Source of the DNA: a virus | Strand: one strand, 5' to 3' | DNA length: 26,104 bases | Virus record (IMG/VR): IMGVR_UViG_3300044960_000158 | Coordinates: 1-26,104 of that record | Part shown: piece after piece, positions 6,722 through 25,715 of the stretch | Numbering within the stretch: position 1 is the first letter of the stretch | Layout of the letters: each line of letters begins with the position of its first letter | Notes under the pieces: model-generated | Databases searched by the model: none | Seen by the model: the letters and a program-made list of their open reading frames with translations, nothing else | Told to the model about the DNA's origin: nothing | Position numbers and translations under genes: made by a program

Positions 6722-8434
6722 ATGACCCGCCTGACACTGCGCCCCTACCAGGACGAAGCGCTCGCCAGAGTAGACGAAGCGGTTCGGCGTGGGGTTCGGT
6801 CTCTGCTCGGCGTAGCCGCGACCGGCCTCGGAAAGACGGTGATTTTCTGCGCGCTGGCTGAGCGCATAGGGGGACGGACCCTCATCCTCGCCCACCGAGA
6901 CGAACTGGTCCGGCAAGCAGCAGCCAAAGTACGCGAGGTCTGGCCCGAAGCAGACGTCGGGATCGTTCAGGGCAACGCGAACGACGTGCGAGCGAAGGTC
7001 GTCGTGGCGTCGGTCCAGACGATCGCACGCGAGAAGCGGCTAGCTGCTCTCGCCAACTCCTGGGAGAATGAGTCGCTGTATCCCGTCGACCCGTTCTCGC
7101 TGGTCGTCATCGACGAGGCACACCACGCTGCCGCTGACTCATACCGGTCGATTATCGCGGCGGTGCGTGCAGGCGATAAAGGCTGCCGGTGTGGGACTCC
7201 CCACGACGCCAACGGTGAGGTGTCGCCGTGCCCGATGACCTACCCCGGTCCGATTCTGTTCGGTGTGACAGCGACGCCGGACCGGGGCGACGGGCAGGGC
7301 CTCGACGATCTGTTCGAGGAGATTCCGTTTGCGTACGACATCCTGTGGGGGATCAGGTCAGGGTACCTTTCCGACCTCCGAGGCATGGCGGTCCGCCTCG
7401 CGGACTTCGCCGCGTCGGACCTGAAGGTCAAGCGCGGCGACTACGACGCCGGTGACGCCGGCCGGCTCCTGGAAGCAGCGGGTGCGCCTCGGCTGATCGT
7501 GTCGGCGTGGCAGGAACACGCGAGTGACCGCCCGACAGTCTGCTTCGCCCCGACGGTAGCTCTCGCGGGGCTGATCGCCGACGAGTACCGAAAGCAAGGC
7601 GTCTCCGCTGTGATGCTGTCCGGTGAGACACCGATCAGCGATCGGCGTCAACTGCTCGACGACTTCGCCCGAGGCATCATCCGAGTCGTAGTGAACTGCG
7701 GTGTGCTCACCGAAGGGTTCGACGAGCCGTCAGTGTCGTGCATCGTCGTGGCGCGCCCGACCCGTTCGCGTGCGCTCTACGCCCAGATGGTCGGCCGAGG
7801 TACACGCCGTCACCCGGAAAAGACCGACTGCCTCGTCCTCGACGTCGTAGGTGTCTCCGACGACCTGTCGCTAGTGACCGTCCCTACACTGTTCGGGCTC
7901 ACCGGCGACCGCGCCGAAGCGGGCAGAAACAGGACCGTCGGGGTAGCGGCGCTCGCCGACGACGAGGAACGCGAACAGCTTCGCCTCGGCCTGCTCAGAG
8001 CCGAAGAAGTGCAGCTGTTCCAAGCGATCCGTGCCGAGGGGATAGCGTGGGTTGCGTTGCACGCTGAAGGCGAACCGAAACGGTTCTCGCGGAATCTCGG
8101 AGACGGACAGCCGACGGTCATCCTCGCAGAGTCCCGCTCCGGCGGGTGGGTCGCGGGGCTGCTGCACCCCGACGGTTCGAAACGGGTGCTCATCAACGGC
8201 GTGCCGATGGAAACCGCGCAAGGGGTCGCCGAGGACTATGTGCGTCGAGCCGGTGGTGTGCTGGCACGAGCCGACGCCAAGTGGCGGGCGTTGCCGCCCA
8301 CGGCGAAGCAGATCGCGGCAGCCAAACGGTGGCGTGTGACGGTAGAGCCGGGTATGACACGAGGCGACCTGTCGGACGCGATCGACCGGAAAGCGCAGCG
8401 GGTCAAAGGCCTGCATCGGCGCGCGGCTAGCTGA
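6722..8434 (+). CDS. SF2 DEAH-box helicase with a Cys-rich insertion
   Basis: The 570 residues carry the full SF2 set: Q-like RPYQ at 7-10, Walker A ATGLGKT (K38), DEAH at 131-134, TATP at about 183-186, then GVLTEGFDEPSVS and QMVGRGTRR, motifs V and VI of the second RecA-like domain. This is the type of phage/RecG-like or restriction-type DNA helicase annotated simply as DEAD/DEAH helicase. Between DEAH and TATP lies an insertion with C155, C157, H161 and C170 that could hold a zinc ion. The C-terminal 150 residues are unassigned. It starts a new stretch after the HTH/WhiB region and ends next to the parS-like palindrome. The start at ATG 6722 has only a weak GAGTGAG upstream. Confidence 0.85.
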   Translation: MTRLTLRPYQDEALARVDEAVRRGVRSLLGVAATGLGKTVIFCALAERIGGRTLILAHRDELVRQAAAKVREVWPEADVGIVQGNANDVRAKVVVASVQTIAREKRLAALANSWENESLYPVDPFSLVVIDEAHHAAADSYRSIIAAVRAGDKGCRCGTPHDANGEVSPCPMTYPGPILFGVTATPDRGDGQGLDDLFEEIPFAYDILWGIRSGYLSDLRGMAVRLADFAASDLKVKRGDYDAGDAGRLLEAAGAPRLIVSAWQEHASDRPTVCFAPTVALAGLIADEYRKQGVSAVMLSGETPISDRRQLLDDFARGIIRVVVNCGVLTEGFDEPSVSCIVVARPTRSRALYAQMVGRGTRRHPEKTDCLVLDVVGVSDDLSLVTVPTLFGLTGDRAEAGRNRTVGVAALADDEEREQLRLGLLRAEEVQLFQAIRAEGIAWVALHAEGEPKRFSRNLGDGQPTVILAESRSGGWVAGLLHPDGSKRVLINGVPMETAQGVAEDYVRRAGGVLARADAKWRALPPTAKQIAAAKRWRVTVEPGMTRGDLSDAIDRKAQRVKGLHRRAAS

Positions 8435-8450
8435 CGTTTCACGTGAAACA
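8435..8450. promoter_or_regulatory. parS centromere-like site
   Basis: CGTTTCACGTGAAACA lies between the helicase stop and the ParB-methyltransferase gene. The 14-base core GTTTCACGTGAAAC at 8436-8449 is a perfect palindrome and equals the parS core used by chromosomal ParB of Streptomyces and Mycobacterium. It differs at one outer base from the common 16-mer TGTTTCACGTGAAACA. No second copy is visible in the window. It lacks a loop and T-tract, so it is not a terminator. Confidence 0.8.
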
Positions 8451-8480: not shown

Positions 8481-10085
8481 GTGCCGGAAAGGTTCATTGA
8501 GTACATGGCGTTGGACGAGCTGGAGCCCGCTCCTCGCAACCCGAAGGATCACGCCCGCGACGCGATCAACGCATCACTTGACCGGTTCGGCTTTACCGAG
8601 CCGATCATGCTCGACGAGCGCACTGGCAGAATGGTCGCCGGTCACGGCAGGCGCGCCAAGCTGCTTGAGAAGCTCGCTGCCGGCGAGAGCGCACCGGACG
8701 GGATCATTGACCGTGACGGCCGATGGTTCGTGCCTGTCGTCCGAGGCTGGGCTAGCCGCTCAGACGATGACGCGGAAGCCTATCTAGTCGCGTCGAACCG
8801 ACTCGTTGAGCTTGGCGGCTGGTACGCGGACGAGCTGGCCTCGCTGCTCTCCGACCTCGCTCAGACTCCAGGCGGATTGAATGGCACCGGCTACGACGAC
8901 TCGACCCTGGACGGTCTGCTAGGGCAGCTAGGAAGCGAAACAGACGTCGTGACGCTCGGAGAACCCGAGCCGCAGGAACCGACAATCAACTTGGCTGCTC
9001 GGTTTCTTGTCCCGCCTTTCTCGGTCCTTGATGCCCGACAAGGCTACTGGCAGGCCAGGAAGCGAGAGTGGCTCGCTCTCGGCATCCGTAGCGAGGTAGG
9101 TCGGCCCCGCAATCTGCTCGGGATGAGCGAGCAGGCACGCACCGGATACCAGCAGCCGACCCGATCAACTGCTACGGCGTTCGACGACCCACAGTTCTGG
9201 TACAAGAAACGGCTCGCCGAGCGGCGTGTCGGCAGGTCGTTGACGACCCGAGAGTTCGTGGAGGAGCACTACGAGGGCCCCGACGCGTACTACGAGGGGA
9301 CGTCGGTGTTCGACCCGGTGCTGTGTGAACTCGCGTACCGCTGGTGGTGCCCACCGGGCGGTCGTGTCCTCGACCCGTTCGCTGGCGGTTCTGTACGTGG
9401 GATTGTCGCTGGCAAGCTAGGTCTCGGCTACCTCGGCGTCGAGCTGCGCCCCGAGCAGATCGCAGCCAACGAAGAACAGCGTGTGGTGATTCTCGGCGAT
9501 CACGCGCCTGTGAGCTGGATCGAAGGCGACAGCGAGGATGTCATCCCGAGCCTCGACAAGTGGGGGGTAACTGAGCCGTTCCACTTCCTGTTCTCATGCC
9601 CGCCGTGCTACGACCTAGAGCGTTACTCCGACGACCCTCGCGATTTGTCGAACATGTCGTGGCCGGCGTTCGTGGAGAAGTACCGAGCCATCATCAAAGC
9701 GTCGGTCGATCGCATGGAAGATGACTCGTTCGCCTGTTTCGTCGTCGGCGAGATCCGCGACAATGCTGGCATCAACCGGGCGTTTGTCCCTGAGACGATC
9801 GGCGCGTTCGCACGCGCAGGCGCCGCGTACTACAACGAGGCGATTCTCGTCACTCCGATAGGTGCGCTCGCTTTGCGAGCCGCACGCATCTTCAACGGGG
9901 CCCGCAAGCTGGGGCGAGCCCACCAAACCGTGCTTGTGTTCGTGAAGGGGGACCCGCAGCGCGCGGCGGACAAACTCGGCGAGCTGCAACTCCCCGATCC
10001 GGCGGAGCTGTTCCCGCATCTCTCCCCGGACGCTGCGTTCGAACCGGGAGCGTTCGACTCCGCTGAAGACGACACGGAACCGTAG
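8481..10085 (+). CDS. ParB/Srx-domain and DNA methyltransferase fusion
   Basis: The protein has 534 residues. Residues 1-85 form a ParB/sulfiredoxin-like domain: an N-terminal strand (IEYMALDELEPAPRNPKDH), then PIMLDERTGRMVAGHGRRAKLLEKL containing the GxxRR-type box. There is no obvious ParB DNA-binding helix-turn-helix afterwards. Residues about 250-510 are a methyltransferase with motif I DPFAGGSVRG at 298 and motif IV SCPPCYDLE at 372-380, a variant of the S/DPPY loop of amino-methylating DNA methyltransferases. ParB-methylase fusions are known in phages and mobile elements. The GTG start has a strong AGGAGG at 8469-8474 spaced six bases, and the parS palindrome lies 30 bases upstream. Two oxygenase/PLP-type genes follow, suggesting a modification operon. 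Confidence 0.8.
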   Translation: MPERFIEYMALDELEPAPRNPKDHARDAINASLDRFGFTEPIMLDERTGRMVAGHGRRAKLLEKLAAGESAPDGIIDRDGRWFVPVVRGWASRSDDDAEAYLVASNRLVELGGWYADELASLLSDLAQTPGGLNGTGYDDSTLDGLLGQLGSETDVVTLGEPEPQEPTINLAARFLVPPFSVLDARQGYWQARKREWLALGIRSEVGRPRNLLGMSEQARTGYQQPTRSTATAFDDPQFWYKKRLAERRVGRSLTTREFVEEHYEGPDAYYEGTSVFDPVLCELAYRWWCPPGGRVLDPFAGGSVRGIVAGKLGLGYLGVELRPEQIAANEEQRVVILGDHAPVSWIEGDSEDVIPSLDKWGVTEPFHFLFSCPPCYDLERYSDDPRDLSNMSWPAFVEKYRAIIKASVDRMEDDSFACFVVGEIRDNAGINRAFVPETIGAFARAGAAYYNEAILVTPIGALALRAARIFNGARKLGRAHQTVLVFVKGDPQRAADKLGELQLPDPAELFPHLSPDAAFEPGAFDSAEDDTEP

Positions 10086-10094
10086 GAGGCAGAT

Positions 10095-11204
10095 GTGGCA
10101 GACGACACGAAGCTGTGGCAGCGCGGCTTCCCGCTGGCGGAACTCCGCGCAGTCACAGACGACTTCGCGGCGTGGGACGACGGCCTCGTACTCGGAGCGT
10201 TCACCCGCGTGAAGGAGAACGCTGTCGCAGCGGCGCGCGCCGACGGAAAGCTGCTGTCGATAGGACAGTCACACGCCATCCACCACACCGTCGGTCGCCC
10301 GCTACCCATCAAGGATTTCACCGGCGCCGAACGGCTCGTCGCCCCAGCAGGGACCCTCGTCGTTGACCGATTCTGCGGTCCGGATGCAGTCACAGCGCTA
10401 GTCCGTGACGCCAGACACCGCCCAGTTGTCGTCCACGGCTGGATCGAACATCCTCGCGACTCGGACATCCTCACGAGCCTCGGTCTCCGGCTCGCAGCAG
10501 CCAAAATCAGGGCGTCGTCGGAGCTAATCGGCGTCTGGCATCGCGGCTGCTATCTCGGTCAGCCGATAGCCGACGCCGACACTTGGGCTCTGAGACCAGC
10601 ACCCGGCCTGCCGTCGCCTGTCACGCCCAACCAGGCCCGCGAGGAGCTGGACGCTGCGGCCGTCGAGTTCGCGGACCACTACTCGTCGTACAACGCCCGG
10701 CATTCCTGGCAGGCGTTCGCTTTGCGAAGCTTCGGAGGCGACCCGCTGTTCATTGAGAAGCCTGCGGAGATGAGCCGGAAGTGGAAGCACGAGCATCCCG
10801 ACGCGCTCGCATGGGACTGCGAATGGACGCCGGCAGCGGATCGGCTCCCGAGCCTCCGCGCGCTCGCGGAGAGCCTGCCAGCCCCAGTGGAACGGGTCAG
10901 GGTCATGAGGCTGCGAGCAGGCGACGGCGAGCTGACCAGGCACGCCGACATCACCGACCGATCCGCAGGCACCGCCCCCGGATGTCTGCTGCGCCTCCAC
11001 TGGCCGATCACCACGAACCCCGACGTCACGTTCACGGCGTGGACGCTCACCGGCGAACAGCAACGCGAGCATTTCGCCGCAGGCAAGTGGTGGTATCTCG
11101 ACACGCGGAAACCCCACGCCTGCGTCAACGCGGGTGAGACGGACCGCATCCACCTCGTGGTAGACGCGTGGAGCACCCCGGAACTCCTCGACGCTCTCCG
11201 ATGA
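10095..11204 (+). CDS. Two-domain protein ending in an Asp/Asn-hydroxylase-like 2OG-Fe(II) oxygenase
   Basis: The protein has 369 residues. The C-terminal third has the aspartyl/asparaginyl beta-hydroxylase pattern: RVMRLRAGDGELTRHADI, LRLHWPITTNPDVTF, GKWWYLDTRKPHACVN and DRIHLVVDAW. Iron ligands would be H283, D285 and H341, and R351 would bind 2-oxoglutarate. The N-terminal 170 residues are unfamiliar; the end (HPRDSDILTSLGLRL, then ELIGVW) faintly recalls a GNAT acetyltransferase fold, which I do not assert. Substrate could be DNA, a modified base precursor or a protein. AGGAGG at 10084-10089 precedes GTG 10095; ATG 10093 is in another frame. It overlaps the next gene by ATGA and follows the ParB-methylase by nine bases. 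Confidence 0.66.
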   Translation: MADDTKLWQRGFPLAELRAVTDDFAAWDDGLVLGAFTRVKENAVAAARADGKLLSIGQSHAIHHTVGRPLPIKDFTGAERLVAPAGTLVVDRFCGPDAVTALVRDARHRPVVVHGWIEHPRDSDILTSLGLRLAAAKIRASSELIGVWHRGCYLGQPIADADTWALRPAPGLPSPVTPNQAREELDAAAVEFADHYSSYNARHSWQAFALRSFGGDPLFIEKPAEMSRKWKHEHPDALAWDCEWTPAADRLPSLRALAESLPAPVERVRVMRLRAGDGELTRHADITDRSAGTAPGCLLRLHWPITTNPDVTFTAWTLTGEQQREHFAAGKWWYLDTRKPHACVNAGETDRIHLVVDAWSTPELLDALR

Positions 11205-11521
11205 CCGTCGACAGGTTCCCGCCACCAGTCGTTGACCATCTCGACGTTGATGGCCGCGAACTGCTGGTAGTGCGAGACGACCTGATTCCTGGCGGCACGA
11301 AGCTGCGTGTGCTGCCGCGCATCATGGCCGACGACCCACACGACGAGTTCGTGTTCGGTGGGCCCGCACAAGGCTACGCCCAAGTCGCGCTAGGCCACGC
11401 CGCCGCGATCACAGGCAAGACCGCCACGTATTTCGTTGCTCGCCGGACGCAGCTACATCCATTGACTGAGCCGCTCAAAGCACGCGCCGCTAAGATCGCG
11501 CGCGAGGTCTGCACAGCTTAG
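11201..11521 (+). CDS. Short PLP-fold protein resembling the N-terminus of ACC deaminase/D-cysteine desulfhydrase
   Basis: The 106 residues contain LLVVRDDLIPGGTKLRVLP followed by FVFGGPAQGYAQVALGHAAAITG. This is the arrangement of the fold-type II PLP enzymes of the ACC deaminase/D-cysteine desulfhydrase group: RDDL, GGNK with the Schiff-base lysine (here K34 in GGTK), then a Gly/Ser/Asn-rich phosphate loop. Full-length relatives have about 330 residues, so two thirds are absent, and the usual QSNH loop reads AQGY. It may be a reduced enzyme that works with the oxygenase or methylase, or a truncated relic. The ATG overlaps the oxygenase stop as ATGA and the gene is followed by a terminator, so it closes the operon. 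Confidence 0.55.
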   Translation: MTVDRFPPPVVDHLDVDGRELLVVRDDLIPGGTKLRVLPRIMADDPHDEFVFGGPAQGYAQVALGHAAAITGKTATYFVARRTQLHPLTEPLKARAAKIAREVCTA

Positions 11522-12946: not shown

Positions 12947-13021
12947 GCCTAGGCCACACACTCACCACGGCTAGCCTGAACGAACCCGAGCCCACGACAC
13001 TCGATCCGCGAGAGGACACGC

Positions 13022-13654
13022 ATGGCTCGCCCCACCCGAATCCACGACGTCATCGGCCACACCGACACCGGCGACCCCATCACCGTCGGCGACCGCATCA
13101 TCTCCGCCATCCGAGCCGGCAACTACATCGAAACCGCAGCTGCGTTCGCCGGCGTCCACAAAGACACGATCTACCATTGGCTGCGCGAAGGCGCCCGAGC
13201 CCGAGCCCGCCTCGAAGCAGCCCTAGCCGACGGAAACACCAGCGTCGATGTCACCGACAACGAACGCGCCTGGATGGAGTTCTCCGACGCAGTAGCCCAA
13301 GCGCAAGCCGCCGCGGAAGTCGACGACGTCGCCCGCCTCGCATCCCTCGCTCGCGGCGGCCTCACCGCCACCACAGTCGTCGAGAAGCGCGACGCCGACG
13401 GCAGGCTGATCGAGCGAACGGAACGCACGGAAACGACGATCCCGGACGCGGCGACGATCCGTTGGAGGTTGGAGCGCCGCCACCCGGACAGGTGGGGTAG
13501 GCAGCATGTCGAGGTGACGGGCCCGGAGGGCGGCCCCATCGAGCTGAGCGTCGCGGAGCAGCGTGAGGCCCTCGCGGAGCGGCTAGCGGAGCGACGTCGG
13601 CGTCTGCTCGACACCAGCGAGCCGAGTAGCGGCAGCGAGCAGAGCGACGAGTGA
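13022..13654 (+). CDS. terS: Terminase small subunit
   Basis: A protein of 210 residues. Residues 38-60 contain a helix-turn-helix (ETAAAFAGVHKDTIYHWLREG) for pac/cos recognition, followed by a helical central region with a WMEFSDAVAQAQ stretch. The typical small-terminase segment WRLERRHPDRWG plus EVTGPEGGPIEL lies near residues 145-170, and a charged C-terminal helix follows. Small terminase recognises phage DNA and stimulates the large subunit. The large terminase follows with a GTGA overlap. GAGAGGA at about 13009-13015 supports ATG 13022. Confidence 0.86.
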   Translation: MARPTRIHDVIGHTDTGDPITVGDRIISAIRAGNYIETAAAFAGVHKDTIYHWLREGARARARLEAALADGNTSVDVTDNERAWMEFSDAVAQAQAAAEVDDVARLASLARGGLTATTVVEKRDADGRLIERTERTETTIPDAATIRWRLERRHPDRWGRQHVEVTGPEGGPIELSVAEQREALAERLAERRRRLLDTSEPSSGSEQSDE

Positions 13655-15183
13655 CACGCGTCGAGGACGACTCAGGGTGGCGGCCTCCGGGGCTGTCGAT
13701 CGAGGACGAGCTAGCTCTCCTGTCGGACGAGGAGCGGGCGGCGTGGATCGCTGAGCTGACCCCGGACGAGCTGGCGGCGCTGATGGCACGCGACTGGTCT
13801 GTGGTCGCGAGACCTGAGCAGCTTCTCCCCGAGGGGCACGACTGGCTGGTGTGGCTGATCCGGGCGGGGCGCGGCTGGGGTAAGACACGCACAGGCGCGG
13901 AGGCGACGAAAGAGTCGATCCGTGAGCTGGCGGCGCAGACGTCGGACCCTGTCCGGTGGGCGCTTCTGGCTCCTCGCCGTGAGGACGTGCTGTCCATCCA
14001 GCTCGAAGGCGAGTCGGGTCTAGCCGCGGTTCTCCCTCCGTCCATGCTCGTAGGTGGGTCGTGGGACAGGTCGTTCAACCGTTCGGAGCTTACGTTGACA
14101 CTCGACGGCGGACATCAGGTGCGTGGCTTCTCCGGTCGCACTCCGTCGGCGTTGCGGGGCCCGCAGCATCACGGCGCGTGGATCGACGAACCGGCGACGC
14201 TCCCTGACGCGCACCGAGGCATGGACGACGACACCGCGTTCTCGAACCTGCTGCTGGGGTTGCGGCTCCCTCCCTGGAACCGGTTACTGGTGACCGGCAC
14301 ACCCAGGAACGTCCGGCTGATCCGCGATATTCGTTCCCTCCCCGGTCTCATCGAGACGGTCGGCAGAACCCGCGACAACCTCGCGAACCTGTCGGACCTG
14401 TTCCGGGCGGTCGTTGTCGCACGCTATGAGGGGACGAGGCTTGGCCGCCAGGAACTGGACGCCGAGCTTCTCGAAGGGGTCGGCGTGCTGTTCGCACGTG
14501 GATGGTTCCGCAGGGGCGCACCCGAATGGCCTCGCGACGCGGCGGTCCGCAGGGTCCGCTACTGGGATCTGGCGTCGGGGGAGGAGAGCGAGGCGAACCC
14601 CGACCCGGACTGGACGGTAGGCGCTCTCGTCGCGTTCGAGCCCGAGAGGCGCCTTTACCGCGTCGAGCACATCGAACGGTTCCGGCTCCCTCCCGGGGCT
14701 AGGGAGACCCGCATCCGGGCTGTCGCGAAAGCTGACGGCCTCCCAGTCGTCTGGATCGAGAAGGAGCCAGGCAACGCCGGCAAGGCACAGCTCATGATGA
14801 TCGGACGCGAGCTGGACGGCATCGCCGCCGTGAAAGGCAACCCGGTTACTGGCCCGAAGACTGTGCGCGCCGAGCTGTTGGCGACCGCTGCGGAGCAGGG
14901 TCGGGTCACGATCCCTGATGACGCCCAGTGGGTCGAGGCGTTCCTTGACGAGGCGGAGGAGTTCCCGGACGGCCCGCACGACGACCAGGTGGACGCGGTA
15001 GCAGGTGCGTTCCAAGTGCTGCGAGAGGCGGGCCCAGCTACTGTCGTGGCTCGCCCGGCTGCCGCGCCGAGCCTGCCTCGACCCGGCTCGCAGCGCCGCC
15101 AGGCTGTCGTCCCCCGTGCGCCGGTGCAGGCTGCGGGGCTCATCCCAGGGCGTAGTCGCAGTGGTCGTGGCTACGGCCTCTAG
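13651..15183 (+). CDS. terL: Terminase large subunit
   Basis: The 510-residue packaging motor has ATPase Walker A GRGWGKT (K78) and Walker B near AWIDEP (D179, E180), where GPQHHGAWIDEPATL matches the conserved motif II and VTGTP the following coupling motif. The nuclease half shows YWDLASG (D306), WIEKEPGNAGK and DDQVDAVAGAF (D444, D445), the acidic triad of the RNase H-like fold. It translocates DNA into the prohead through the portal and cuts the concatemer. The start GTG 13651 overlaps the small-subunit stop. The 3' end contains a promoter-like element for the next gene. Confidence 0.93.
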   Translation: MTRVEDDSGWRPPGLSIEDELALLSDEERAAWIAELTPDELAALMARDWSVVARPEQLLPEGHDWLVWLIRAGRGWGKTRTGAEATKESIRELAAQTSDPVRWALLAPRREDVLSIQLEGESGLAAVLPPSMLVGGSWDRSFNRSELTLTLDGGHQVRGFSGRTPSALRGPQHHGAWIDEPATLPDAHRGMDDDTAFSNLLLGLRLPPWNRLLVTGTPRNVRLIRDIRSLPGLIETVGRTRDNLANLSDLFRAVVVARYEGTRLGRQELDAELLEGVGVLFARGWFRRGAPEWPRDAAVRRVRYWDLASGEESEANPDPDWTVGALVAFEPERRLYRVEHIERFRLPPGARETRIRAVAKADGLPVVWIEKEPGNAGKAQLMMIGRELDGIAAVKGNPVTGPKTVRAELLATAAEQGRVTIPDDAQWVEAFLDEAEEFPDGPHDDQVDAVAGAFQVLREAGPATVVARPAAAPSLPRPGSQRRQAVVPRAPVQAAGLIPGRSRSGRGYGL

Positions 15184-15196
15184 CCGCAGCTACGAT
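15168..15196 (+). promoter_or_regulatory. Late promoter-like element with TAGC-GCTA dyad
   Basis: TACGAT at 15191-15196 is preceded by TAGCCGCAGC, giving TAGC (15181-15184) and GCTA (15189-15192) as an imperfect dyad like those at 11659 and 22534. A weak TGGCTA at 15168-15173 is 17 bases upstream. The -10 box ends seven bases before ATG 15204, consistent with a leaderless transcript. Confidence 0.45.
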
Positions 15197-15203
15197 GCGT
15201 GTC

Positions 15204-15440
15204 ATGACTGCGATGATCACGAGAGCGACGCTGGACCTCCCGGACGGCTCCCGCATCGAGCGGGTGCGTGTCGTCTACAGCGACAGCGAGGCGTACGCGC
15301 TGGACAGTAGAGGCCAACGCGTGTGGGAGGCGCAGCTGTCCGGCGTGGAGCGGCCGTCTCGCGGGGTAGTGCTCCTTTACCTCGCCGACCCCGACGGGGC
15401 GGTAGCGAAAGCCGAGCGGGTCTGCGGCTGCCGCAGCTAA
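15204..15440 (+). CDS. Small hypothetical protein, probably leaderless
   Basis: A protein of 78 residues with a beta-strand-rich pattern (RATLDLPDGSRIERVRVVYSD, then VWEAQL and VLLYL), ending in CGCRS. The reading frame has an earlier ATG at 15195, but that lies inside the predicted -10 box. ATG 15204 sits where transcription should start and there is no ribosome-binding site. Function is unknown; small beta proteins between terminase and portal are common in actinophages. Confidence 0.5.
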   Translation: MTAMITRATLDLPDGSRIERVRVVYSDSEAYALDSRGQRVWEAQLSGVERPSRGVVLLYLADPDGAVAKAERVCGCRS

Positions 15441-15459
15441 GACCGAAAGGGGAGAGATT

Positions 15460-16128
15460 ATGGACGAACGCCACGCGACGGCCGTAGCTGACGCTTGGGA
15501 GGAGGCGGCCCGCCGCGTCGACTATCGAGCCGCTATCCATCCGCTCGGCTCGGACCTCGCCGCGTACCGCGCATCGGGCGAGACGCTCGCCGCGCATCTC
15601 TCGGACCTCGCAGCGGCGTGGCTGCCGAAGGGGCGCCGACGCGACGTCATCGAGGTCGGGGTCGGCGACGGCCGCATCGCCGGCCCGCTAGCACGCCTCG
15701 GCTGGAAGGTGACTGGCCTCGACACATCCCCGACGATGCTGCGCCATCTCGCCGACAACTACCCTGAGGTAGACGGCGTGCTGATCGACCCGGCAGGCCC
15801 GCTCCCGAAGCTGCGAGCGAGCGTGGTGTTCGCGGTCGCTGTCCTGATCCACCAGTCGGTCGCGAACGGGCAGGAGATGGTGCGGGAATGGGCGGGGCTG
15901 CTGCGACCTGGCGGGGTGATGCTCCTCCACATCCCGCTCTACGACGAGCCGAGGGAGGGGGAACATTGGACCGACGTGACAGTCTGGACGGTCGGCGGGC
16001 TCTGCGCCGCGGCAGAATCCGCGGGTCTGATTGTCGAGCGAGCCGAAGCGAACCCCGGCGTGTTCTCGTTCGACGCGGTCGGCCCGAACCACGCCGCGAT
16101 CCACGTCCTCTGCAAGCCGGACCGCTGA
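15460..16128 (+). CDS. Class I SAM-dependent methyltransferase
   Basis: A protein of 222 residues. Motif I is IEVGVGDGRIAG at about 64-75, followed by VTGLDTSPTMLRHL (motif II, acidic residue contacting the ribose), then a strand VVFAVAVLIHQ and LLRPGGVMLLHIP as the post-I loop. The fold matches small-molecule or sugar methyltransferases rather than DNA methylases; no catalytic NPPY-type loop is present. Its neighbours are two glycosyltransferases, so methylation of a sugar or of a glycosylated virion protein is the likely job. The AAAGGGGA before ATG 15460 is a good ribosome-binding site. Confidence 0.78.
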   Translation: MDERHATAVADAWEEAARRVDYRAAIHPLGSDLAAYRASGETLAAHLSDLAAAWLPKGRRRDVIEVGVGDGRIAGPLARLGWKVTGLDTSPTMLRHLADNYPEVDGVLIDPAGPLPKLRASVVFAVAVLIHQSVANGQEMVREWAGLLRPGGVMLLHIPLYDEPREGEHWTDVTVWTVGGLCAAAESAGLIVERAEANPGVFSFDAVGPNHAAIHVLCKPDR

Positions 16129-16154
16129 CCGCTGGCTTGGCGAGGGACGCAGCC

Positions 16155-16235
16155 GTGGGGCTTCTGGTCGGCGTCGTCATAGTAGGCGTCGCTGTCGGGG
16201 TAGCGGAGATCCTCAGGTGGAGGCTTGACAGGTGA
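16155..16235 (+). CDS. Miniature 26-residue membrane peptide
   Basis: GTG 16155, preceded by GAGGGA at 16142-16147, opens 26 residues of which about 18 are Val/Gly/Leu/Ile (GLLVGVVIVGVAVGVAEIL), a plausible single membrane span. It ends with RWRLDR. The stop overlaps the glycosyltransferase start as GTGA. TTG 16137 would add six residues. It may be a short anchor protein; coding status is uncertain because the gene is very small. Confidence 0.35.
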   Translation: MGLLVGVVIVGVAVGVAEILRWRLDR

Positions 16236-17191
16236 GGGTTCTCGCGCACGTCCATCTGTACCCGCCATCTCATAACGCTGGCGCGGAATGGGCGTTGCAT
16301 TCGACGCTCCGGCATCTCCGAGCCGAATACGACGCTGATGTCAGCGTGATCACGAACCGCCCGCCTCGCCGCCACGACACGTTCCAGGGGGTGCGGGTGT
16401 CGATGATCCGGGACCCTCGACGGGCCCGCAGCCTGTACCGTGACGCTGACGTGATCGTCACGCATCTCGACGCGACCAGACAGGCAATCGCGTGTGCTCA
16501 GCGTGAGCGGCGACCCCTCGTGCATCTCGTCCACAACGACCGTCAGCTCGCGTACCATCGCGTAACCCGAGAGGAGGCGCATCTCGTCTGCTTCAACTCG
16601 CGATGGATCGCTGAGACTGTCGAATGGGATGGCCCGTCGATGGTGCTGCACCCGCCGGTGTGGGTCGCTGACTACCGGCCTGCGCCCGGACCGCACGACG
16701 CTGTGCTCCTCCTGAACCTCGCCGCAGCGAAGGGCGCACGGACCTTCTACGCTTTAGCCGCTCGGTTCCCGACGACCCGGTTCGTTGGGGTGCGTGGCGC
16801 CTACGCCGCGCAGACTGAGCCTCCCCCCGGGCTGTCGAACGTGTCGGTCGTCGAGAACACTCCGGATGTCGCAGCGCTGTACGCCCAGGCGCGGGTCGTG
16901 CTGATGCCGTCCCACTACGAATCGTGGGGGCGCGTAGCAGTCGAGGCCGCAGCAGCACGCGTCCCGACGCTCGCAGCACCCACACCAGGGCTCCGTGAGA
17001 CAGGTGTCCCCGCGGGTTTCGCCGCGCACGACGACATCGACGAATGGGAACGGCTCCTGCGTCGACTCCTCAACGACGACGACGCATGGGGCGAGGCCGC
17101 CACCCGAGCCCACGCGCGGGCTGTCGCGCTCGAAGCGGAGTCCCGAGATCAGCTCGCCGACCTCGCTGAACGGCTGGGGTCGCTGTGCTGA
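16232..17191 (+). CDS. GT4-like glycosyltransferase
   Basis: The 319 residues form a GT-B-fold glycosyltransferase. The N-terminal domain opens with MRVLAHVHLYPPSHNAGAEW, the nucleotide-sugar transferase signature of a strand followed by a Gly-rich loop. The C-terminal domain has HYESWGRVAVEAAA with the EX7E motif (E230, E238) that binds the donor nucleotide sugar. It probably transfers a hexose to a phage structural protein. The start GTG overlaps a preceding mini-gene and the end overlaps the next glycosyltransferase, forming a cassette. Confidence 0.8.
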   Translation: MRVLAHVHLYPPSHNAGAEWALHSTLRHLRAEYDADVSVITNRPPRRHDTFQGVRVSMIRDPRRARSLYRDADVIVTHLDATRQAIACAQRERRPLVHLVHNDRQLAYHRVTREEAHLVCFNSRWIAETVEWDGPSMVLHPPVWVADYRPAPGPHDAVLLLNLAAAKGARTFYALAARFPTTRFVGVRGAYAAQTEPPPGLSNVSVVENTPDVAALYAQARVVLMPSHYESWGRVAVEAAAARVPTLAAPTPGLRETGVPAGFAAHDDIDEWERLLRRLLNDDDAWGEAATRAHARAVALEAESRDQLADLAERLGSLC

Positions 17192-18192
17192 TCCACGCGC
17201 TCGCGTCGCACCGCCATTACGCCGAGCATCTGCTACCGATCTGGCAGGCTCTCGACCCGTCAGAGCGCGGCATGTTCGTCGCGGCGTCTCGGGACGCGTG
17301 GGAATGGCTTGGCCGACGAGGCGTCCCGGTGATGCTGCACCGTGCGCAGCTCCCCGCCCGCCGGTCACTTGTCGATGGCCGGCAACCCCCGTGGCTTGTC
17401 GCGTCGTACTCCGATCTCGTTGCGTTGGGCCCGCATCGGCGAGCTGTGCTCGTCGAGCACGGCGCCGGCCAGCACTACGGCGGCGACGGAGGAACCGCCG
17501 CCTCACTCCCGTATCACGCCGGTGGTCGCGACCGCCACCGCGTCGACGTGTTCGTCTGCCCGAACCGGGTCGTAGCGGACCGCAACGCCGCCGTGTACCC
17601 GGACGCTATGGCGGTAGCAGTCGGATGCCCGAAGCTCGACACCTACTCGCGTGGCGAATCGGACGCTGTCGTGTTCGCTTGGCATTGGCACCCACCGGTC
17701 GCTGCGTCTGTCCCTGAGGCCGGGTCAGCGCACGCCGAGTACGCCGACGCTGTTGCGGCGCTCGCGTCTGAGCGTCGCTGGCTTATGCTCGGCCACGGCC
17801 ATCCGAGAGCGTGGAGCCACTACGAGGCGTATTACCGTGCCGCTGGCATCGAACCCGTCCGAGAACTCCGAGAGGCGTTAGCCCGAGCCCGTCTGCTGGT
17901 CGCGGACAACACGTCGGCGATGTGGGAAGCCGTCGCCCTCGACATCCCAGTCGTCGTAGTCAACTCGCGGCGATACCGACGGGACGTGAACCACGGCCTC
18001 CGCTTCTGGCAGTACGCTGACGTGGGCCCGCAGGTAAACGACCCGGGTGAGCTGGCCGCCACGATCGACGCCGCGCTCGCAGGCGACGTGTGGGCGGCGA
18101 GACGAGCCGAGGTCGCCAGCCTGCTGTACGGTCCGCTTGACGGAGGCGCAGCTGTTCGGGCTGTGGAGGCGATGCGTGCGTTCTACGACTGA
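17185..18192 (+). CDS. CDP-glycerol/TagB-like GT-B transferase
   Basis: The 335 residues have the pattern of the CDP-glycerol:polyglycerophosphate transferase family: VLVEHGAGQHYGG in the N-terminal half and ARLLVADNTSAMWEAVALDIPVVVVNS in the C-terminal domain, the donor-binding region with the conserved D-N/S-S-E sequence. Members add glycerol phosphate or sugars in teichoic-acid-like pathways; here the surface target is probably a phage glycan made by the neighbouring GT4 enzyme. GTG 17185 overlaps the end of that gene by seven bases. Confidence 0.7.
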   Translation: MLIHALASHRHYAEHLLPIWQALDPSERGMFVAASRDAWEWLGRRGVPVMLHRAQLPARRSLVDGRQPPWLVASYSDLVALGPHRRAVLVEHGAGQHYGGDGGTAASLPYHAGGRDRHRVDVFVCPNRVVADRNAAVYPDAMAVAVGCPKLDTYSRGESDAVVFAWHWHPPVAASVPEAGSAHAEYADAVAALASERRWLMLGHGHPRAWSHYEAYYRAAGIEPVRELREALARARLLVADNTSAMWEAVALDIPVVVVNSRRYRRDVNHGLRFWQYADVGPQVNDPGELAATIDAALAGDVWAARRAEVASLLYGPLDGGAAVRAVEAMRAFYD

Positions 18193-18508
18193 CAGAGATC
18201 AGCTCGCAGCTCTAGTCGTGGATGGGCTCGCGGCGTTCCGGCTCACCCGCCTGGTCGTCGACGACACAATCACCGACAAGGCCCGTTCCCTTACCCTCAC
18301 GACAGCGGAACGGATCGGCGGCAGCAGCGCCAGCGACTTCGCCGCGGACCTGCTGTCCTGCTATTGGTGCGCAGGGATGTGGGTTTCCGCAGGGGTTGTG
18401 TGCGCGCGGACGTGCGCGCCGCGCATGTGGCGTCCGGTCGCCGCGACGCTCGCGTTGTCCGCTATCGCGGGGCTGCTCGGGTCGCTCCGCTACGATTCTG
18501 GGTCGTGA
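18176..18508 (+). CDS. DUF1360-like small membrane protein
   Basis: A protein of 110 residues. It contains DGLAAFRLTRLVVDDTITDKAR at the start, LLSCYWCAGMWVSAGVV in the middle and a final hydrophobic stretch (VAATLALSAIAGLLGSL). The R-L-T-R-L-V-D and C-x-x-C-x-G-x-W-V-S pattern fits DUF1360, a small membrane family often found beside phage portal genes. Two membrane spans are likely, with a Cys pair between them. GGAGG at 18165-18169, six bases before GTG 18176, sets the start. The stop overlaps the portal GTG. Confidence 0.66.
   Translation: MRSTTDRDQLAALVVDGLAAFRLTRLVVDDTITDKARSLTLTTAERIGGSSASDFAADLLSCYWCAGMWVSAGVVCARTCAPRMWRPVAATLALSAIAGLLGSLRYDSGS
18489..18496 (+). promoter_or_regulatory. 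Late -10-like element before the portal
   Basis: GCTACGAT at 18489-18496 has the same core as the element before 15204. The -10 box (TACGAT, 18491-18496) ends eight bases before GTG 18505. No convincing -35 exists at 16-18 bases, so promoter strength is doubtful, but the position relative to the start codon matches the others. Confidence 0.38.
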
Positions 18509-20955
18509 CGGTGACTGACGACCTGTCGCCCATCCTGACGGCCCCGGAACCGATACCGGATCGCGCGTACCGTCTCGGACGAATGGAGGGCCGACTTCAG
18601 GGGCTGCGTGAACGGCGCCGCCGCGAAGGGCCCGCCGGGCTTCTCGCAGCCGCCAAGACCATCGACCTGGCGTCTCAGCGGGAAGCGACACTGATGAAAC
18701 GGCGGCAAGGGTCGCAGCGAGGCGGATGGCAGGACGACGCATGGCTCTACTACGACGTCCTGAGCGAGATCAAGCAGGCCGCGCGGTTCAAAGGCAGAGC
18801 GCTCAGCAAGCTGCGGCTTTTCCCCGCGATCATTCTCCCAGGGGAACACGAGGCTGTTCCGCTGACAACGGAGATCGACGAACGTCCGGTTGTCGCACCC
18901 GAGATTGCTGAGATCGCCGACACGCTTCTCCGCAGGCTTGGCGGCGGACGCGACGCCCACCGCACGATGCTCGAGCGATGGGGGCAGAACGGCTTCGTGG
19001 TCGGGGAGGGCTACCTCGTCGGCTGGCAGGACCCGTCTGCTTCTGAGGCGGAACGGGACAGATTCGCGTTTGCGTCGATTGACGAGCTGCGTGTGTCAGG
19101 GGACGGCCGATGGGAATACCAGCCTGATCCCGGAGCGAGCGTCGAGGACGCTGTGCGTCTCGACCCTGCCACTTCGCTTGTCGTCCGCGTGTGGTATCAG
19201 CACGCCCGCTATTCCGCGATGGCGGACTCACCGGTCGCAGGGGTACTTGACCACTGCGAGCATCTCGTGACGCTGCAACAGGAAAGCCTCGGCGCGGCCA
19301 TGTCGCGGATGAACAACGGTGTGCTGCTTGTCCCACGCGGCGCGACCGTGCATGGGGGGCGGCTCCCAGACTCGGACGGAACGGACGGCGAGGCGCAGCG
19401 GTCCGTGACACTCGACGACCTGCTACAGCACATCATCACCCCTATCGGCAATCCGCGGTCTGCGTCCGCTGCGGCGCCCATCATCATCTCAGCCGACCCC
19501 GAAGACATCGACCGCTTCCGACACCTCACGTTCGGGCGTCCATTCGACGACGCAGTAGACAACCGGATCAGAGCGCTCATTGATCGCATCGCGAACGGCG
19601 TCGACCTCCCCAAAGAGGTGCTGACGGGGCAGCTCGGAGACGCGAACCACTGGTCGGCGTGGCTGATCACCGACTCGCAGTTCCGCGACTACGTGCAGCC
19701 CGACGCCGACCAGTTCGTCGAGGCGATCACGACCGGCTACCTGCGGCCGGCGCTCGCCGCAGCGAACGTCCCGCCGGATGTGGTTGCACGCATCGTCGTC
19801 GCCTACGACGCGTCTGATCTCGTCGCCGACCCCGACGAGAGCGCTAACGCGTTCAGGGCTGTGGAGCTGGGTCTCATCAGCGACGCCGCAGGACGCCGCA
19901 GGATCGGCTACTCGGAAGCGGAAGCACCAACACCGGAGGAACGCGCGGAACGCCTCGGTAGTGCCGCTACTGCGCCTGGAGGCTCTGCCCCTAGCGAATC
20001 GGGCGGAACCGGCGACGAACCCGCGACTGAGGATGCGCTCACAGCGGCGGCGGCAGTGTCACGCGGCACGGACCGGGTCGCGCAGCTCGGCCGCCGTTGG
20101 GCCGACCGAGACCGGCAGCTCCGCTCCAGGCTGCTCGTCGCGGCAGACGCGGCGATGACACGCGCGCTTGACCGTGCTGGGGCGCGGCTGCGTTCAAGGC
20201 TAGGCGCGGCGAAGCATTCGCCGTGGCGGGACATCATCGACGGACACCCCAACCGTGAAGTCGCGTCGCTCATCGGGCCCGCAGCGGTCACCGCCGCGAT
20301 CGACGCAGACCCCGCGACACTAATCGAAAGCGAGTTCGACGAGATTGTCGCTAGGTTCCGGGCTCAGGTCGGCAGGGCGCAGCGGCAGACCCGCAGCGAA
20401 CTCGCCGAGCTTGGCCTCGACGACGAGCAGGTCGAGCGCATGGAGCGAGCGCAAGCAGAGGGTCGTGAGCGGGGCGCGGAACTGCTGCTCGCATTGCTCG
20501 TCGGGCTCGCATCAAGTCGCCTGTTCGACCCGCGCCCGTCCGCACCGCCGATCGGTGAGCACGACCCGGACATGTCGGTGCCGGCTGGCGTGATGCGGCA
20601 AGCCCTTTCGGTGGCTGGTGGCGCTCGTGGTGAGCCGACCCGAGGCGGAGCGTTCCGGGGCCCCGACGAGCGGATCGCCGGGCAGCTCGCTACCGGCCAG
20701 ACCGTCGCGGATTTCGCGCGTGAGATCGGCCTAGAGATCGCCGGCTACATCTGGGATTACGGCGACGCGTCGACACGGCAGACGCCGTTCCCGCTGCACG
20801 AGTCCCTCGACGGCGTTCAGTTCGACACGTGGGACGACCCGGCGCTCGCTAACAGCGCCGCGTTTCCCGACACCCAGTTCCTGTTCCCTGGCGACCACGA
20901 CGGCTGCCAGTGCGACGCTGTTCCCCGCTTCGTCGATCTCCGCGAGCAGCAGTAG
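18505..20955 (+). CDS. Portal protein fused to a MuF-like minor head domain
   Basis: A protein of 816 residues. The first 500 are portal-like: QDDAWLYYDVLSEIKQAARFKG (early helical segment), a central region with LDHCEHLVTLQQESLGAAMSRMNNGVLLVPRG, and DLPKEVLTGQLGDANHWSAWLI, the stem/clip region seen in actinophage portals. The last 300 are a charged helical MuF-type domain ending in IWDYGDASTRQTPFPLHESLDG and PGDHDGCQC (795-803), the Cys-rich closing motif of MuF/SPP1 gp7-like head proteins. Portal and MuF are usually separate genes. The start is GTG 18505 (GTGA overlap), a leaderless-type start; GTG 18511 is an alternative. The UAG stop has an open in-frame extension (separate entry). Confidence 0.85.
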   Translation: MTVTDDLSPILTAPEPIPDRAYRLGRMEGRLQGLRERRRREGPAGLLAAAKTIDLASQREATLMKRRQGSQRGGWQDDAWLYYDVLSEIKQAARFKGRALSKLRLFPAIILPGEHEAVPLTTEIDERPVVAPEIAEIADTLLRRLGGGRDAHRTMLERWGQNGFVVGEGYLVGWQDPSASEAERDRFAFASIDELRVSGDGRWEYQPDPGASVEDAVRLDPATSLVVRVWYQHARYSAMADSPVAGVLDHCEHLVTLQQESLGAAMSRMNNGVLLVPRGATVHGGRLPDSDGTDGEAQRSVTLDDLLQHIITPIGNPRSASAAAPIIISADPEDIDRFRHLTFGRPFDDAVDNRIRALIDRIANGVDLPKEVLTGQLGDANHWSAWLITDSQFRDYVQPDADQFVEAITTGYLRPALAAANVPPDVVARIVVAYDASDLVADPDESANAFRAVELGLISDAAGRRRIGYSEAEAPTPEERAERLGSAATAPGGSAPSESGGTGDEPATEDALTAAAAVSRGTDRVAQLGRRWADRDRQLRSRLLVAADAAMTRALDRAGARLRSRLGAAKHSPWRDIIDGHPNREVASLIGPAAVTAAIDADPATLIESEFDEIVARFRAQVGRAQRQTRSELAELGLDDEQVERMERAQAEGRERGAELLLALLVGLASSRLFDPRPSAPPIGEHDPDMSVPAGVMRQALSVAGGARGEPTRGGAFRGPDERIAGQLATGQTVADFAREIGLEIAGYIWDYGDASTRQTPFPLHESLDGVQFDTWDDPALANSAAFPDTQFLFPGDHDGCQCDAVPRFVDLREQQ

Positions 20956-21063
20956 CCAGACGACGAGCCGCGCGGTTCGATCGCGGTCAGCATGTCGGAC
21001 CTGTTCGACGCCGCTTCCGCTCGGCTCTCCTTCGTCGACACTCGCGCCGTCGACGACGACTAG
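20956..21063 (+). other. In-frame extension after the portal stop codon
   Basis: After the portal UAG the frame stays open for 35 codons to a second UAG at 21061-21063, giving a coding-like, acidic, helix-forming stretch that ends in VDDD. An ATG at 20992 within it could also start a 23-residue peptide (MSDLFDAASARLSFVDTRAV), but I see no ribosome-binding site. Readthrough, a recent stop mutation or a small separate gene are all possible. Confidence 0.3.
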
Positions 21064-21072
21064 CCACGATAG

Positions 21073-21102
21073 TGGACCGAACCCCTTCGCGCGGTCTACG
21101 CT
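21073..21102 (+). promoter_or_regulatory. Leaderless-type promoter before the capsid protease
   Basis: TGGACC at 21073-21078 and TACGCT at 21097-21102 are 18 bases apart. The -10 box ends seven bases before ATG 21110, and no ribosome-binding site precedes the start, so translation is probably leaderless. A CCAC-GATA-GTGG hairpin (21064-21075) overlaps the -35 region. Confidence 0.5.
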
Positions 21103-21109
21103 GGATGCC

Positions 21110-22516
21110 ATGCACGGCACGACCGCAGCCGCGAGAGAGGATGCGTTAGCGGCGGCGCTTGTCGCCCCGTCCGCGACGCTCCCGGCGCACGCAGTTGTGA
21201 CGATCCTGCGCGAAGGGGTCGAGTCGTCCGACGGACGCTGGTTCGCTCCGGGAGGCGGGTCTTGGCGGGAACCGCCACTCACTATGACCGTGAACCACGA
21301 CCCGGATCAGCGGGTCGGGCAGATCGTCCGTATCGGCCGGGTCGCTGACATCGACGCGTTCGCTGGGGCCCTCGACGACACGAACCTGCCGGAGAGCTTC
21401 GCGGCGGCTGTCGGCGACACCGGCGACTTCATCGTGGGGCTCGTGCAGTTCGACCTAGGTCTCGACTCCGACGGCCGACTGGTCGACCCTCAAGCCCCGG
21501 GGCGGCAGGCGGCACGCGAAGTCGACAACGGGTTCCTGCGCGGCGTCTCAGCTGAACTCGGCGACATCCACGTCGAGTTCGAGTGTGTCCGCGAGGACCC
21601 CGACGACCCCGAGTTCTGCCTCGACTATCTGATCCGGTTCGTTCGGTTCAGGATCGGTGCTGTGACGTTCACCCCGTTCCAGGCGATCGAGGATGCCCAG
21701 ACAATCACGACCGGCGACGCCGACGCGGAGGCGATCATCGCTTCCGGTGTTGTGGTCGTTCGAGAGCCTGAGCGTCTGGCCGCTGATGCCCAGCCAGATG
21801 ATCCGCCGCGGGAGTGGTTCGAGTCGCCAGGCTTCGACGAACCGTCGCCGCTCGTGTGGGAAGACACCGGCCGCGTCTACGGCCACATCGCTCTGTGGGG
21901 GACATGCCACATCGCTAGAACCGACTGCTGCCTGTCGCCTCCCCGCTCGCAGAGCGGGTACGCGTACTTCCGGACCGGGGAGGTGCGGTGCTCCGACGGC
22001 AGCCGGGTGCCGGTCGGGTCGCTGACGATGGGCACCGGCCACGCACCCCTCGACATGTCTCCGTCACAGGTCGTGGAGCATTACGACTCGACGGGGACGC
22101 AGGTAGCTCAGGTCGCCGCCGGTGAGGACGACCACGGCATCTGGATTGCTGGAGCCCGGTCGCCCGACGTGACTCCCGCTCAGCTGCGTGTACTCATGGC
22201 TGCATCGGCGTCAGGGGACTGGCGGCGAATCGGCGGTTCGCTAGAGCTGGTGCGTGTGCTCGCTGTCAACACGCCAGGGTTCCCGGTCCCGAGGGTGAGG
22301 ACTCTCGTCGCGTCAGGGGAGCAGACCGCTCTAGTGGCCGCTGGTGCGGCGTCAGCGGCGTCAGCGGCCTGCGGATGCGCCGGCAAGCCGAACGGCGCAG
22401 CGTCAGCCGCACAGGCCGGCCTCGAACGCCGTCTGGCGAACGTCGAGGCGATCCTTGCCGTGATGGGTCTCGACGCCGCCGCGAGGGATCAGCTCAGCTC
22501 CCGTCTCGGCCGCTGA
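21110..22516 (+). CDS. Capsid maturation protease
   Basis: A protein of 468 residues. Residues 20-190 look like a prohead protease: TMTVNHDPDQRVGQIVRI with H63 and RGVSAEL with S147 as the probable catalytic pair. The C-terminal 260 have the actinophage extension: GRVYGHIALWGTCHI, SPPRSQSGYAYF, GEDDHGIWIAGARSP and VLAVNTPGFPVPR, ending in a small coiled segment. The protease trims scaffold and capsid proteins during head maturation. It lies between portal and major capsid, the usual place. The absence of a ribosome-binding site and the -10 box seven bases away suggest a leaderless start at ATG 21110. Confidence 0.8.
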   Translation: MHGTTAAAREDALAAALVAPSATLPAHAVVTILREGVESSDGRWFAPGGGSWREPPLTMTVNHDPDQRVGQIVRIGRVADIDAFAGALDDTNLPESFAAAVGDTGDFIVGLVQFDLGLDSDGRLVDPQAPGRQAAREVDNGFLRGVSAELGDIHVEFECVREDPDDPEFCLDYLIRFVRFRIGAVTFTPFQAIEDAQTITTGDADAEAIIASGVVVVREPERLAADAQPDDPPREWFESPGFDEPSPLVWEDTGRVYGHIALWGTCHIARTDCCLSPPRSQSGYAYFRTGEVRCSDGSRVPVGSLTMGTGHAPLDMSPSQVVEHYDSTGTQVAQVAAGEDDHGIWIAGARSPDVTPAQLRVLMAASASGDWRRIGGSLELVRVLAVNTPGFPVPRVRTLVASGEQTALVAAGAASAASAACGCAGKPNGAASAAQAGLERRLANVEAILAVMGLDAAARDQLSSRLGR

Positions 22517-22518
22517 AC

Positions 22519-22556
22519 CCCAACCCAGCCGCCTAGCCGCGGCTATACTTGTTGGG
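22519..22556 (+). promoter_or_regulatory. Nested dyad promoter with perfect TAGCCGCGGCTA palindrome
   Basis: The 12-base palindrome TAGCCGCGGCTA at 22534-22545 overlaps the -10 box TATACT (22544-22549), which ends eight bases before ATG 22558. An outer pair CCCAAC (22519-22524) and GTTGGG (22551-22556) flanks it, and AGCCGC/GCGGCT (22527-22532, 22539-22544) adds a further stem. The -35 region is weak. The dyad is the same type as at 11659 and 15181. Confidence 0.52.
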
Positions 22557-22557
22557 T

Positions 22558-22809
22558 ATGGCAGCTAGGCAGCATCTCCGGGTGGTCCCACCACACGCCG
22601 ACGTTCACGGCCGCGCCCACCCCGACGGGTCGTGGGAGCATCTGGGTCAGTTCCCGCGGGAGGCTCGCGCATGGCGATGGGTCTCCGACAACCTCGAATC
22701 GCTCGCAGCAGCTTACGCAGATCTGCGGGTGACCGCCGGCGGCGAATCCACGGTCGTCGACGCGGCCGCTCTCCGGGAACGGATCGTCCGCCTCCGCATC
22801 GGACGATGA
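22558..22809 (+). CDS. Small hypothetical protein with leaderless start
   Basis: A protein of 83 residues. It begins with a beta-like HLRVVPPHADVHGRAHPDGSW and continues as a helix (REARAWRWVSDNLESLAAAYADLR), ending in ALRERIVRLRIGR. It may be DUF2188-like (HVVP...GW pattern), a weak resemblance. The frame opens at TTG 22549, but ATG 22558 sits at the expected transcription start of the nested-dyad promoter and there is no ribosome-binding site, so it is the preferred start. Confidence 0.55.
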   Translation: MAARQHLRVVPPHADVHGRAHPDGSWEHLGQFPREARAWRWVSDNLESLAAAYADLRVTAGGESTVVDAAALRERIVRLRIGR

Positions 22810-22839
22810 TTGACGGGCCACTCACACACCTGTTACCGT
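22810..22839 (+). promoter_or_regulatory. Promoter for the major capsid transcript
   Basis: TTGACG at 22810-22815 and TACCGT at 22834-22839 are separated by 18 bases, the best sigma70-like match in the late region. RNA would start near 22847, giving a leader of about 135 bases before the capsid gene. Its position starts at the stop codon of the preceding gene. Confidence 0.6.
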
Positions 22840-22891
22840 GTTTGCGACATCGGAGCGACCCGCAGCCATAGGCGCGGGGGATGGTCCGCAC

Positions 22892-22966
22892 GCCGGCACA
22901 GCCGGGGCGGTCTGACTGCTCGACAGGACCCGACCCCTCAGGGGTCTCACCCTTTCGTCCAGACCG
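22892..22966 (+). promoter_or_regulatory. Structured 5' leader of the major capsid gene
   Basis: Three stems are visible. CCGGC (22893-22897) pairs with GCCGG (22901-22905). CGGTCTG (22908-22914) pairs with CAGACCG (22960-22966). Inside that, GACCCC (22932-22937) pairs with GGGGTC (22941-22946) around TCA. The outer stem ends only three bases before the ribosome-binding AAGGAG at 22970-22975, so folding could affect translation or RNA stability. I recognise no known riboswitch. Confidence 0.5.
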
Positions 22967-22981
22967 ACCAAGGAGCCCGCT

Positions 22982-24733: not shown

Positions 24734-24776
24734 CACGGGGTAGAGGCATGAGAGAGGCCGAGAAGGAGGCAGGCTA

Positions 24777-25664: not shown

Positions 25665-25715
25665 CCATCTAGACCCAGCTAACCAACCCATCAACCACGG
25701 AAGGGAACAACCACC

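Follow-up and report, generated by a model that had tools for sequence, protein, structure and literature searches.

The stretch of DNA analysed here, referred to as the window, is a 26,104-base IMG/VR record with a GC content of ~0.67 that carries replication genes, a terminase gene and a gene for a major head protein. The terminase and the major head protein identify it as a tailed phage. A helicase gene and a gene fusing a ParB-N-like region to a DNA methyltransferase are separated by a 46-bp gap, which runs from the end of the helicase stop codon at 8434 to a GTG start codon at 8481. This gap holds an exact copy of GTTTCACGTGAAAC, the palindromic core of parS, the centromere site of bacterial chromosomes (Table 1), one base from the stop codon and 31 bases from the start codon. 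No other match to the core is present in the window at up to three mismatches. The initial annotation had described an exact 14-bp palindrome, single in the window and 31 bases before a ParB-domain gene, and each of these points is confirmed. The span it gave, 8435-8450, also takes in an outer C...A pair, which is not palindromic and is a half-match to the T...A of the 16-bp consensus.

Table 1. Features at the parS junction of the window.
Feature	Coordinates	Strand	Basis or remark
DEAD/ResIII helicase gene, upstream	6722..8434	+	Pfam PF04851, PF00270, PF00271; phrog_16
Exact chromosomal-type parS core GTTTCACGTGAAAC	8436..8449	.	flanks C...A
GGAGG, ribosome-binding-like, between parS and start codon	8470..8474	+	read from sequence
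ParB-N-like + SAM-dependent DNA methyltransferase fusion, 534 aa	8481..10085	+	phrog_498, phrog_15396, phrog_620; PF01555 below cut-off
ParB-N-like region, residues 6-155 of fusion	8496..8945	+	phrog_620 match
Asp/Asn beta-hydroxylase-like gene, downstream	10095..11204	+	PF05118; order same in relative L002

Chromosome segregation in many bacteria centres on ParB and parS. Palindromy by itself is uninformative, because 26 kb should contain ~1.6 perfect 14-bp palindromes of one sequence or another (26,104/4^7). The particular sequence is far rarer: a first-order Markov model predicts 2.3e-5 exact copies for the window, and of 420 14-bp palindromes of the same composition parS is the only one present. 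One of the two outer bases of the extended 16-bp form TGTTTCACGTGAAACA agrees at the window site, and exactly one agrees at 46 of the 148 viral sites listed. The clustering near a chromosome origin beside parAB is not seen here, the site being single and on a phage record, in a window with no match to ParA or to the ParB helix-turn-helix (ParB-HTH). That a random match is very unlikely, as first proposed, is true of the window, but it has to be set against the size of IMG/VR, where matched palindromes are found in 18-26 stretches. Since such chance copies are bound to surface when many windows are scanned, viral genomes at large were examined.

Close relatives of the window do not extend to the site. 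One IMG/VR contig, L150, is 99.985% identical over 13,123 bases (window 12982-26104) and runs ~8.2 kb beyond the right end of the window, with no further parS in its record within three mismatches. Both this contig and a relative with 73-78% identity, L151, stop short of the parS junction. A search of IMG/VR with the major head protein returned only the near-identical contig and a 76% relative, with the parS position outside both, and searches with the helicase or beta-clamp protein found no IMG/VR relatives. The host is probably an actinobacterium, because a similar head protein occurs in 710 named phages, most of which have Mycobacterium, Gordonia or Microbacterium as hosts. Elsewhere in the window, tandem repeats at 716-822 with 22-23-bp spacing, each with an inverted repeat (GCCTCAYRGTGAGGC), sit inside a replication-initiator O-like gene (375-1148) and look like the iterons of a phage replication origin. 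Three genes occupy an unusual position between the terminase and a portal-like gene (15460-18192), comprising a methyltransferase-like gene recognised by eye, a weak glycosyltransferase match (16232-17191) and a gene with no Pfam match (17185-18192).

An IMG/VR scan for exact parS yielded at least 120 stretches, which hold at least 148 sites, both lower bounds, and 17 of the stretches listed hold more than one site. Complete scans with two control palindromes, GTTTGACGTCAAAC and GATTCACGTGAATC, the latter retaining the CACGTG core, found 26 and 18 stretches, respectively, every one with a single site. The outer T...A of TGTTTCACGTGAAACA flanks 94 of the 148 parS sites listed versus 1/26 and 2/18 control sites. 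Similarly, 91 of the 148 are intergenic (85) or at a gene edge (6), versus 3/26 and 4/18 in the controls, at a coding fraction of 0.87-0.90 in all three sets (0.876 for parS DNA) according to a home-made gene caller whose calls for one contig, G018, differed between two cuts. Gaps are only weakly preferred in contigs with a GC content of at least 0.58, the class to which the window belongs (17/35 parS sites vs. 3/8 for the first control). Of these 35 GC-rich sites, 14 have both consensus flanks, 16 have one and five have none.

Phage genes were seen in seven of the parS contigs (L102, L057, L045, L030, L113, G003 and G018), while the other stretches listed may include cellular DNA. Two of the seven each carry five exact sites within ~1.5 kb upstream of a terminase gene (L102:10536-11461 and L057:2658-3443), and these terminase genes share 77.6% DNA identity. 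L045 has six sites, with a head gene on one side of the first pair and a tail gene on the other, and G003 has three. G018, a GC-rich phage contig of 64 kb, has four exact sites towards one of its ends (L180:277-1880), and ParA and ParB-HTH were not detected in it. Where parS falls inside genes, it is read as VSRET in all 12 sites computed (named phages, G003 and G018), several of which are homologous. The frames of the in-gene sites in the IMG/VR parS set split 41 vs. 16 of 57, compared with 8 vs. 6 for the control GATTCACGTGAATC, and the codon-frame bias is thus suggestive only.

The site is also found in some isolated phages of soil bacteria. Twenty-two actinophage records were fetched without a prior look for parS, three reached via the window head protein, three via the window methyltransferase and 16 via proteins or DNA of the parS-bearing contigs G003 and G018, and this last group makes the sample non-neutral. 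Exact parS occurs in three of the 22 and is missing from 19, with 0.006 expected over 1.54 Mb. The carriers are Arthrobacter phage Odyssey395, with the site in its capsid protease gene, and Arthrobacter phage Tank and Microbacterium phage Kozie, with sites in genes of unknown function. Six more relatives were picked because their DNA resembles the surroundings of those sites, a choice that biases their count: Pointis, MO526 and Rizwana have one exact site each, Ranunculus has three, and Matzah and SilentRX have none. The three sites of Arthrobacter phage Ranunculus, one in the portal gene and two ~1.1 kb apart in the protease gene, each encode DVSRET.

Comparison of these phages indicates some retention of the core. 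Tank and Rizwana share the site at 14/14 positions with 223/297 identical flanking bases, and Kozie and MO526 at 14/14 with 268/294. Odyssey395 and Pointis also both keep it, with flanks too alike to inform (221/225). The site is missing at the matching place in Matzah, in SilentRX and, for the Odyssey395 position, in Ranunculus. A protease-family sample, the best 80 of 567 loci in IMG/VR (1.21 Mb, G003 itself included), contains parS seven times in three loci (G003, L247 and L248), whereas the other 419 palindromes of the same composition occur once altogether. Excluding G003 leaves four sites in 79 loci, from two close relatives whose protease is 85-89% identical to that of G003. All three contigs have two of the G003 sites at 14/14, amid flanks of 0.76-0.86 identity, and the third G003 site is unshared. 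At 46-71% protein identity, L250-L253 lack parS at the matching place. Since Matzah, SilentRX and L250-L253 are all without the site there, parS is not retained on longer evolutionary scales. As judged from these alignments the trait is patchy, occurring in small clades where it is retained for a while.

A random origin of the window 14-mer, whatever the function of parS in other phages, deserves the most careful weighing. The matched palindromes in 18-26 IMG/VR stretches mean that some viral contigs hold meaningless copies, and the window site is single, has a half-matching flank, is absent from distant relatives and belongs to the GC-rich contigs with their weak gap preference. By the control counts, ~15-22% of the at least 120 parS stretches could have arisen by chance, or less if the true parS count is larger. 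If the five GC-rich sites with no consensus flank gauge chance, then ~2-3 of the 16 sites with a single consensus flank, to which the window site belongs, would be chance copies by arithmetic from base composition or from the 44 control sites. The very low expectation for the window itself and the placement of the site within a gap of 46 bp, although most of the genome is coding, also argue for something other than coincidence. A chance copy is therefore an unlikely explanation, though one to be taken seriously, and the window palindrome is probably a genuine host-type parS.

A genuine site might act as a decoy, tying up host ParB (or SMC) by titration or trapping and so disturbing host segregation without aiding the phage DNA. 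The clusters of three to six sites on several phage contigs would suit this role, as would a virulent lifestyle, which these phages may have because the tyrosine integrase profile PF00589 found no match in 25 records, of which 24 have parS (control 14/14). However, one site makes a weak decoy, albeit one multiplied by replication, and PMC7022226 lists parB among the non-essential genes of M. smegmatis and S. coelicolor. A decoy is accordingly considered improbable.

The position of the window site, 31 bases before a start codon and just upstream of a ribosome-binding sequence, raises the further idea of an operator or silencer of the methyltransferase gene, acting through spreading host ParB or a phage helix-turn-helix protein. 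No promoter-like or terminator-like matches lie near the site and the RNA fold around it is ordinary (z 0.5), so readings of it as an RNA hairpin, promoter or terminator failed. Exact parS is absent from the fetched DNA of all 28 IMG/VR relatives of the fusion, many of which match just one of its two domains, and a single relative has a match with two mismatches. Likewise, in the complete IMG/VR records of 20 of these relatives and of L151, 21 in all, parS is absent even at one mismatch. In a bacterial genome collection, five loci from Umezawaea, Amycolatopsis and a Pseudonocardiaceae MAG match the ParB-N part only, and their fetched DNA has no site within two mismatches. Other phages have the site in or near portal, protease, terminase-adjacent or unknown genes, with several copies inside genes unrelated to the methyltransferase. 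An operator is thus quite improbable, and the link between parS and the ParB-domain gene drawn in the initial annotation did not hold up: given the 0/28 relatives, a tie between the two is unlikely, the fusion is probably not the reader and their adjacency is probably accidental. A separate comparison of parS with ParB-N genes found PF02195 in 12 of 45 records, five over the cut-off and two of these five parS-free, and no conclusion was drawn from it.

The fusion gene itself has a recognisable architecture. Its first domain was originally called ParB-like, with which strong PHROG matches agree (phrog_15396, 620, 723 and others), while Pfam ParB_N (PF02195) does not match. PF01555 reaches 23.8 of the 26.7 bits of its cut-off, so the two domains are not both over their Pfam cut-offs. 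The structure model of the fusion is poor (mean pLDDT 64, residues 91-179 <50) with methyltransferase folds found, and the lack of an HTH is stated on the basis of profiles rather than the model. ParB-CTPase-fold/N6-N4 methyltransferase fusions are known in phages according to PMC12704722, and the neighbour gene resembles them by its PHROG profiles but differs in having Pfam scores below curated cut-offs or no match. Evidence tying this fusion family to parS was not found. The methyltransferase, the Asp/Asn hydroxylase-like gene and a small gene have a common order in window 8481-11521 and L002:5362-8419 at 42-58% identity, which suggests one functional unit, perhaps in DNA modification.

A phage-borne reader of the site was sought with three profiles. 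The ParB-HTH profile PF17762 matched none of 50 parS records over the cut-off, the window and 49 of the at least 120 stretches (all 17 multi-site stretches, many GC-rich and some long); one record has a weak match below it (E 8e-4), and nine of 14 control genomes match. The ParA profile PF13614 matched 0 of 24 records, the window, too, being without a match, in a sample of 17 IMG/VR records and seven named phages that left out most multi-site low-GC records (control 14/14). TIGR00180 gave 0/10 over the cut-off and no match in the window, with five weak matches, each in an Arthrobacter phage and covering approximately positions 8-117 of 186. Of the records used with the ParA, TIGR00180 and integrase profiles, those of the seven named parS phages are complete, and the PF17762 sample consists of IMG/VR records only. 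As many IMG/VR records may be fragments with a ParB gene lying outside, the absence of ParB and ParA is unproven for these. The window, possibly such a fragment, thus yields no match to a parABS system of its own by any of the three profiles, in keeping with the original remark that a clear HTH is lacking and that host ParB may be the binder.

A self-contained partition system, with the site read by the ParB-N methyltransferase or by some other protein of the phage, draws on the adjacent ParB-N-like region and on weak ParB-N-like matches in five parS-bearing named Arthrobacter phages, although parS-free SilentRX has one too, and is very hard to credit given these profile results and the 8-bp direct repeats read by RedRock-type phage ParB (PMC7157519).

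The reading preferred here, with a probability of roughly 0.63, is that the site is a host-type parS that would load host ParB onto phage DNA for positioning or segregation. It draws on the sequence identity, the excess and clustering of parS in viral contigs, its retention within clades and the fact that ParB-HTH and ParA of the phage's own were not detected, from which we infer binding and spreading of host ParB, contact with ParA and SMC and a benefit to the phage. If the parS is genuine, host ParB is the likely binder because neither ParB-HTH nor ParA was found in the window. ParB is described as a CTP clamp that loads and spreads in PMC12704722, and SMC is recruited at parS according to PMC10197239. 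Host ParB would thus read the phage parS, load there as a CTP-dependent clamp and slide onto the adjoining phage DNA, and could then bring host ParA and SMC into contact with the phage genome. The most likely outcome would be that the phage DNA is positioned or segregated in the cell, either during extrachromosomal carriage or when distributed in growing or filamentous hosts. The case is weaker for the window than for the named phages, because its site is single with one off-consensus flank and its close relatives do not cover the position.

Known systems offer partial parallels. The 14-bp core is identical to the chromosomal parS of M. smegmatis, printed as GTTTCACGTGAAAC in PMC7022226, where that of S. 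coelicolor is printed as tGTTTCACCTGAAACa; unlike these actinobacterial sites, the window copy is on a phage genome with no adjacent parAB. RedRock-type mycobacteriophages also have a centromere-like site on phage DNA, but, according to PMC7157519, they encode ParA and ParB and use direct repeats, whereas the window has a host-type palindrome and ParA and ParB-HTH were not found. The closest likeness is to SGI1, whose parS-like elements exploit the ParABS of IncC plasmids, an element with copies of another replicon's parS that is stabilised by the ParA/ParB of that replicon (PMC10954446). The window similarly has a foreign parS and no detected parAB of its own, in a possibly incomplete record. 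For SGI1, ParB binding was demonstrated and the parS system belongs to a helper plasmid, whereas here the element is a tailed phage, the owner would be the host chromosome and binding is predicted. Positioning or segregation is favoured as the outcome because SGI1, the one studied analogue found, gains stability via foreign ParAB.

Canonical parS and the theft of parS by SGI1 are already known, as are phage parABS cassettes that use different sites, and no report of host-chromosome parS in phages lacking a partition system was found in searches of the open-licence PMC literature. A broader proposal, to which we give slightly better than even odds, is that unrelated tailed phages repeatedly acquire chromosomal parS and retain it for a while, as single sites or arrays of 3-6, several of them among head and packaging genes where they would be tolerated as DVSRET. 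Host ParB, and via it ParA and SMC, would be loaded during infection with no viral partition protein.

Engineered lambda-parS has been used to watch phage DNA (PMC13190303), and nature may already have parS-tagged phages of this kind. If host ParB coats phage genomes, the positioning of phage DNA and SMC loading on viral DNA become testable, as do interference with host segregation and self-marking against defence. Isolates are at hand in the Arthrobacter phages Ranunculus, Odyssey395 and Tank and in Microbacterium phage Kozie. Phages may, in this way, borrow the chromosome-segregation machinery of their hosts.
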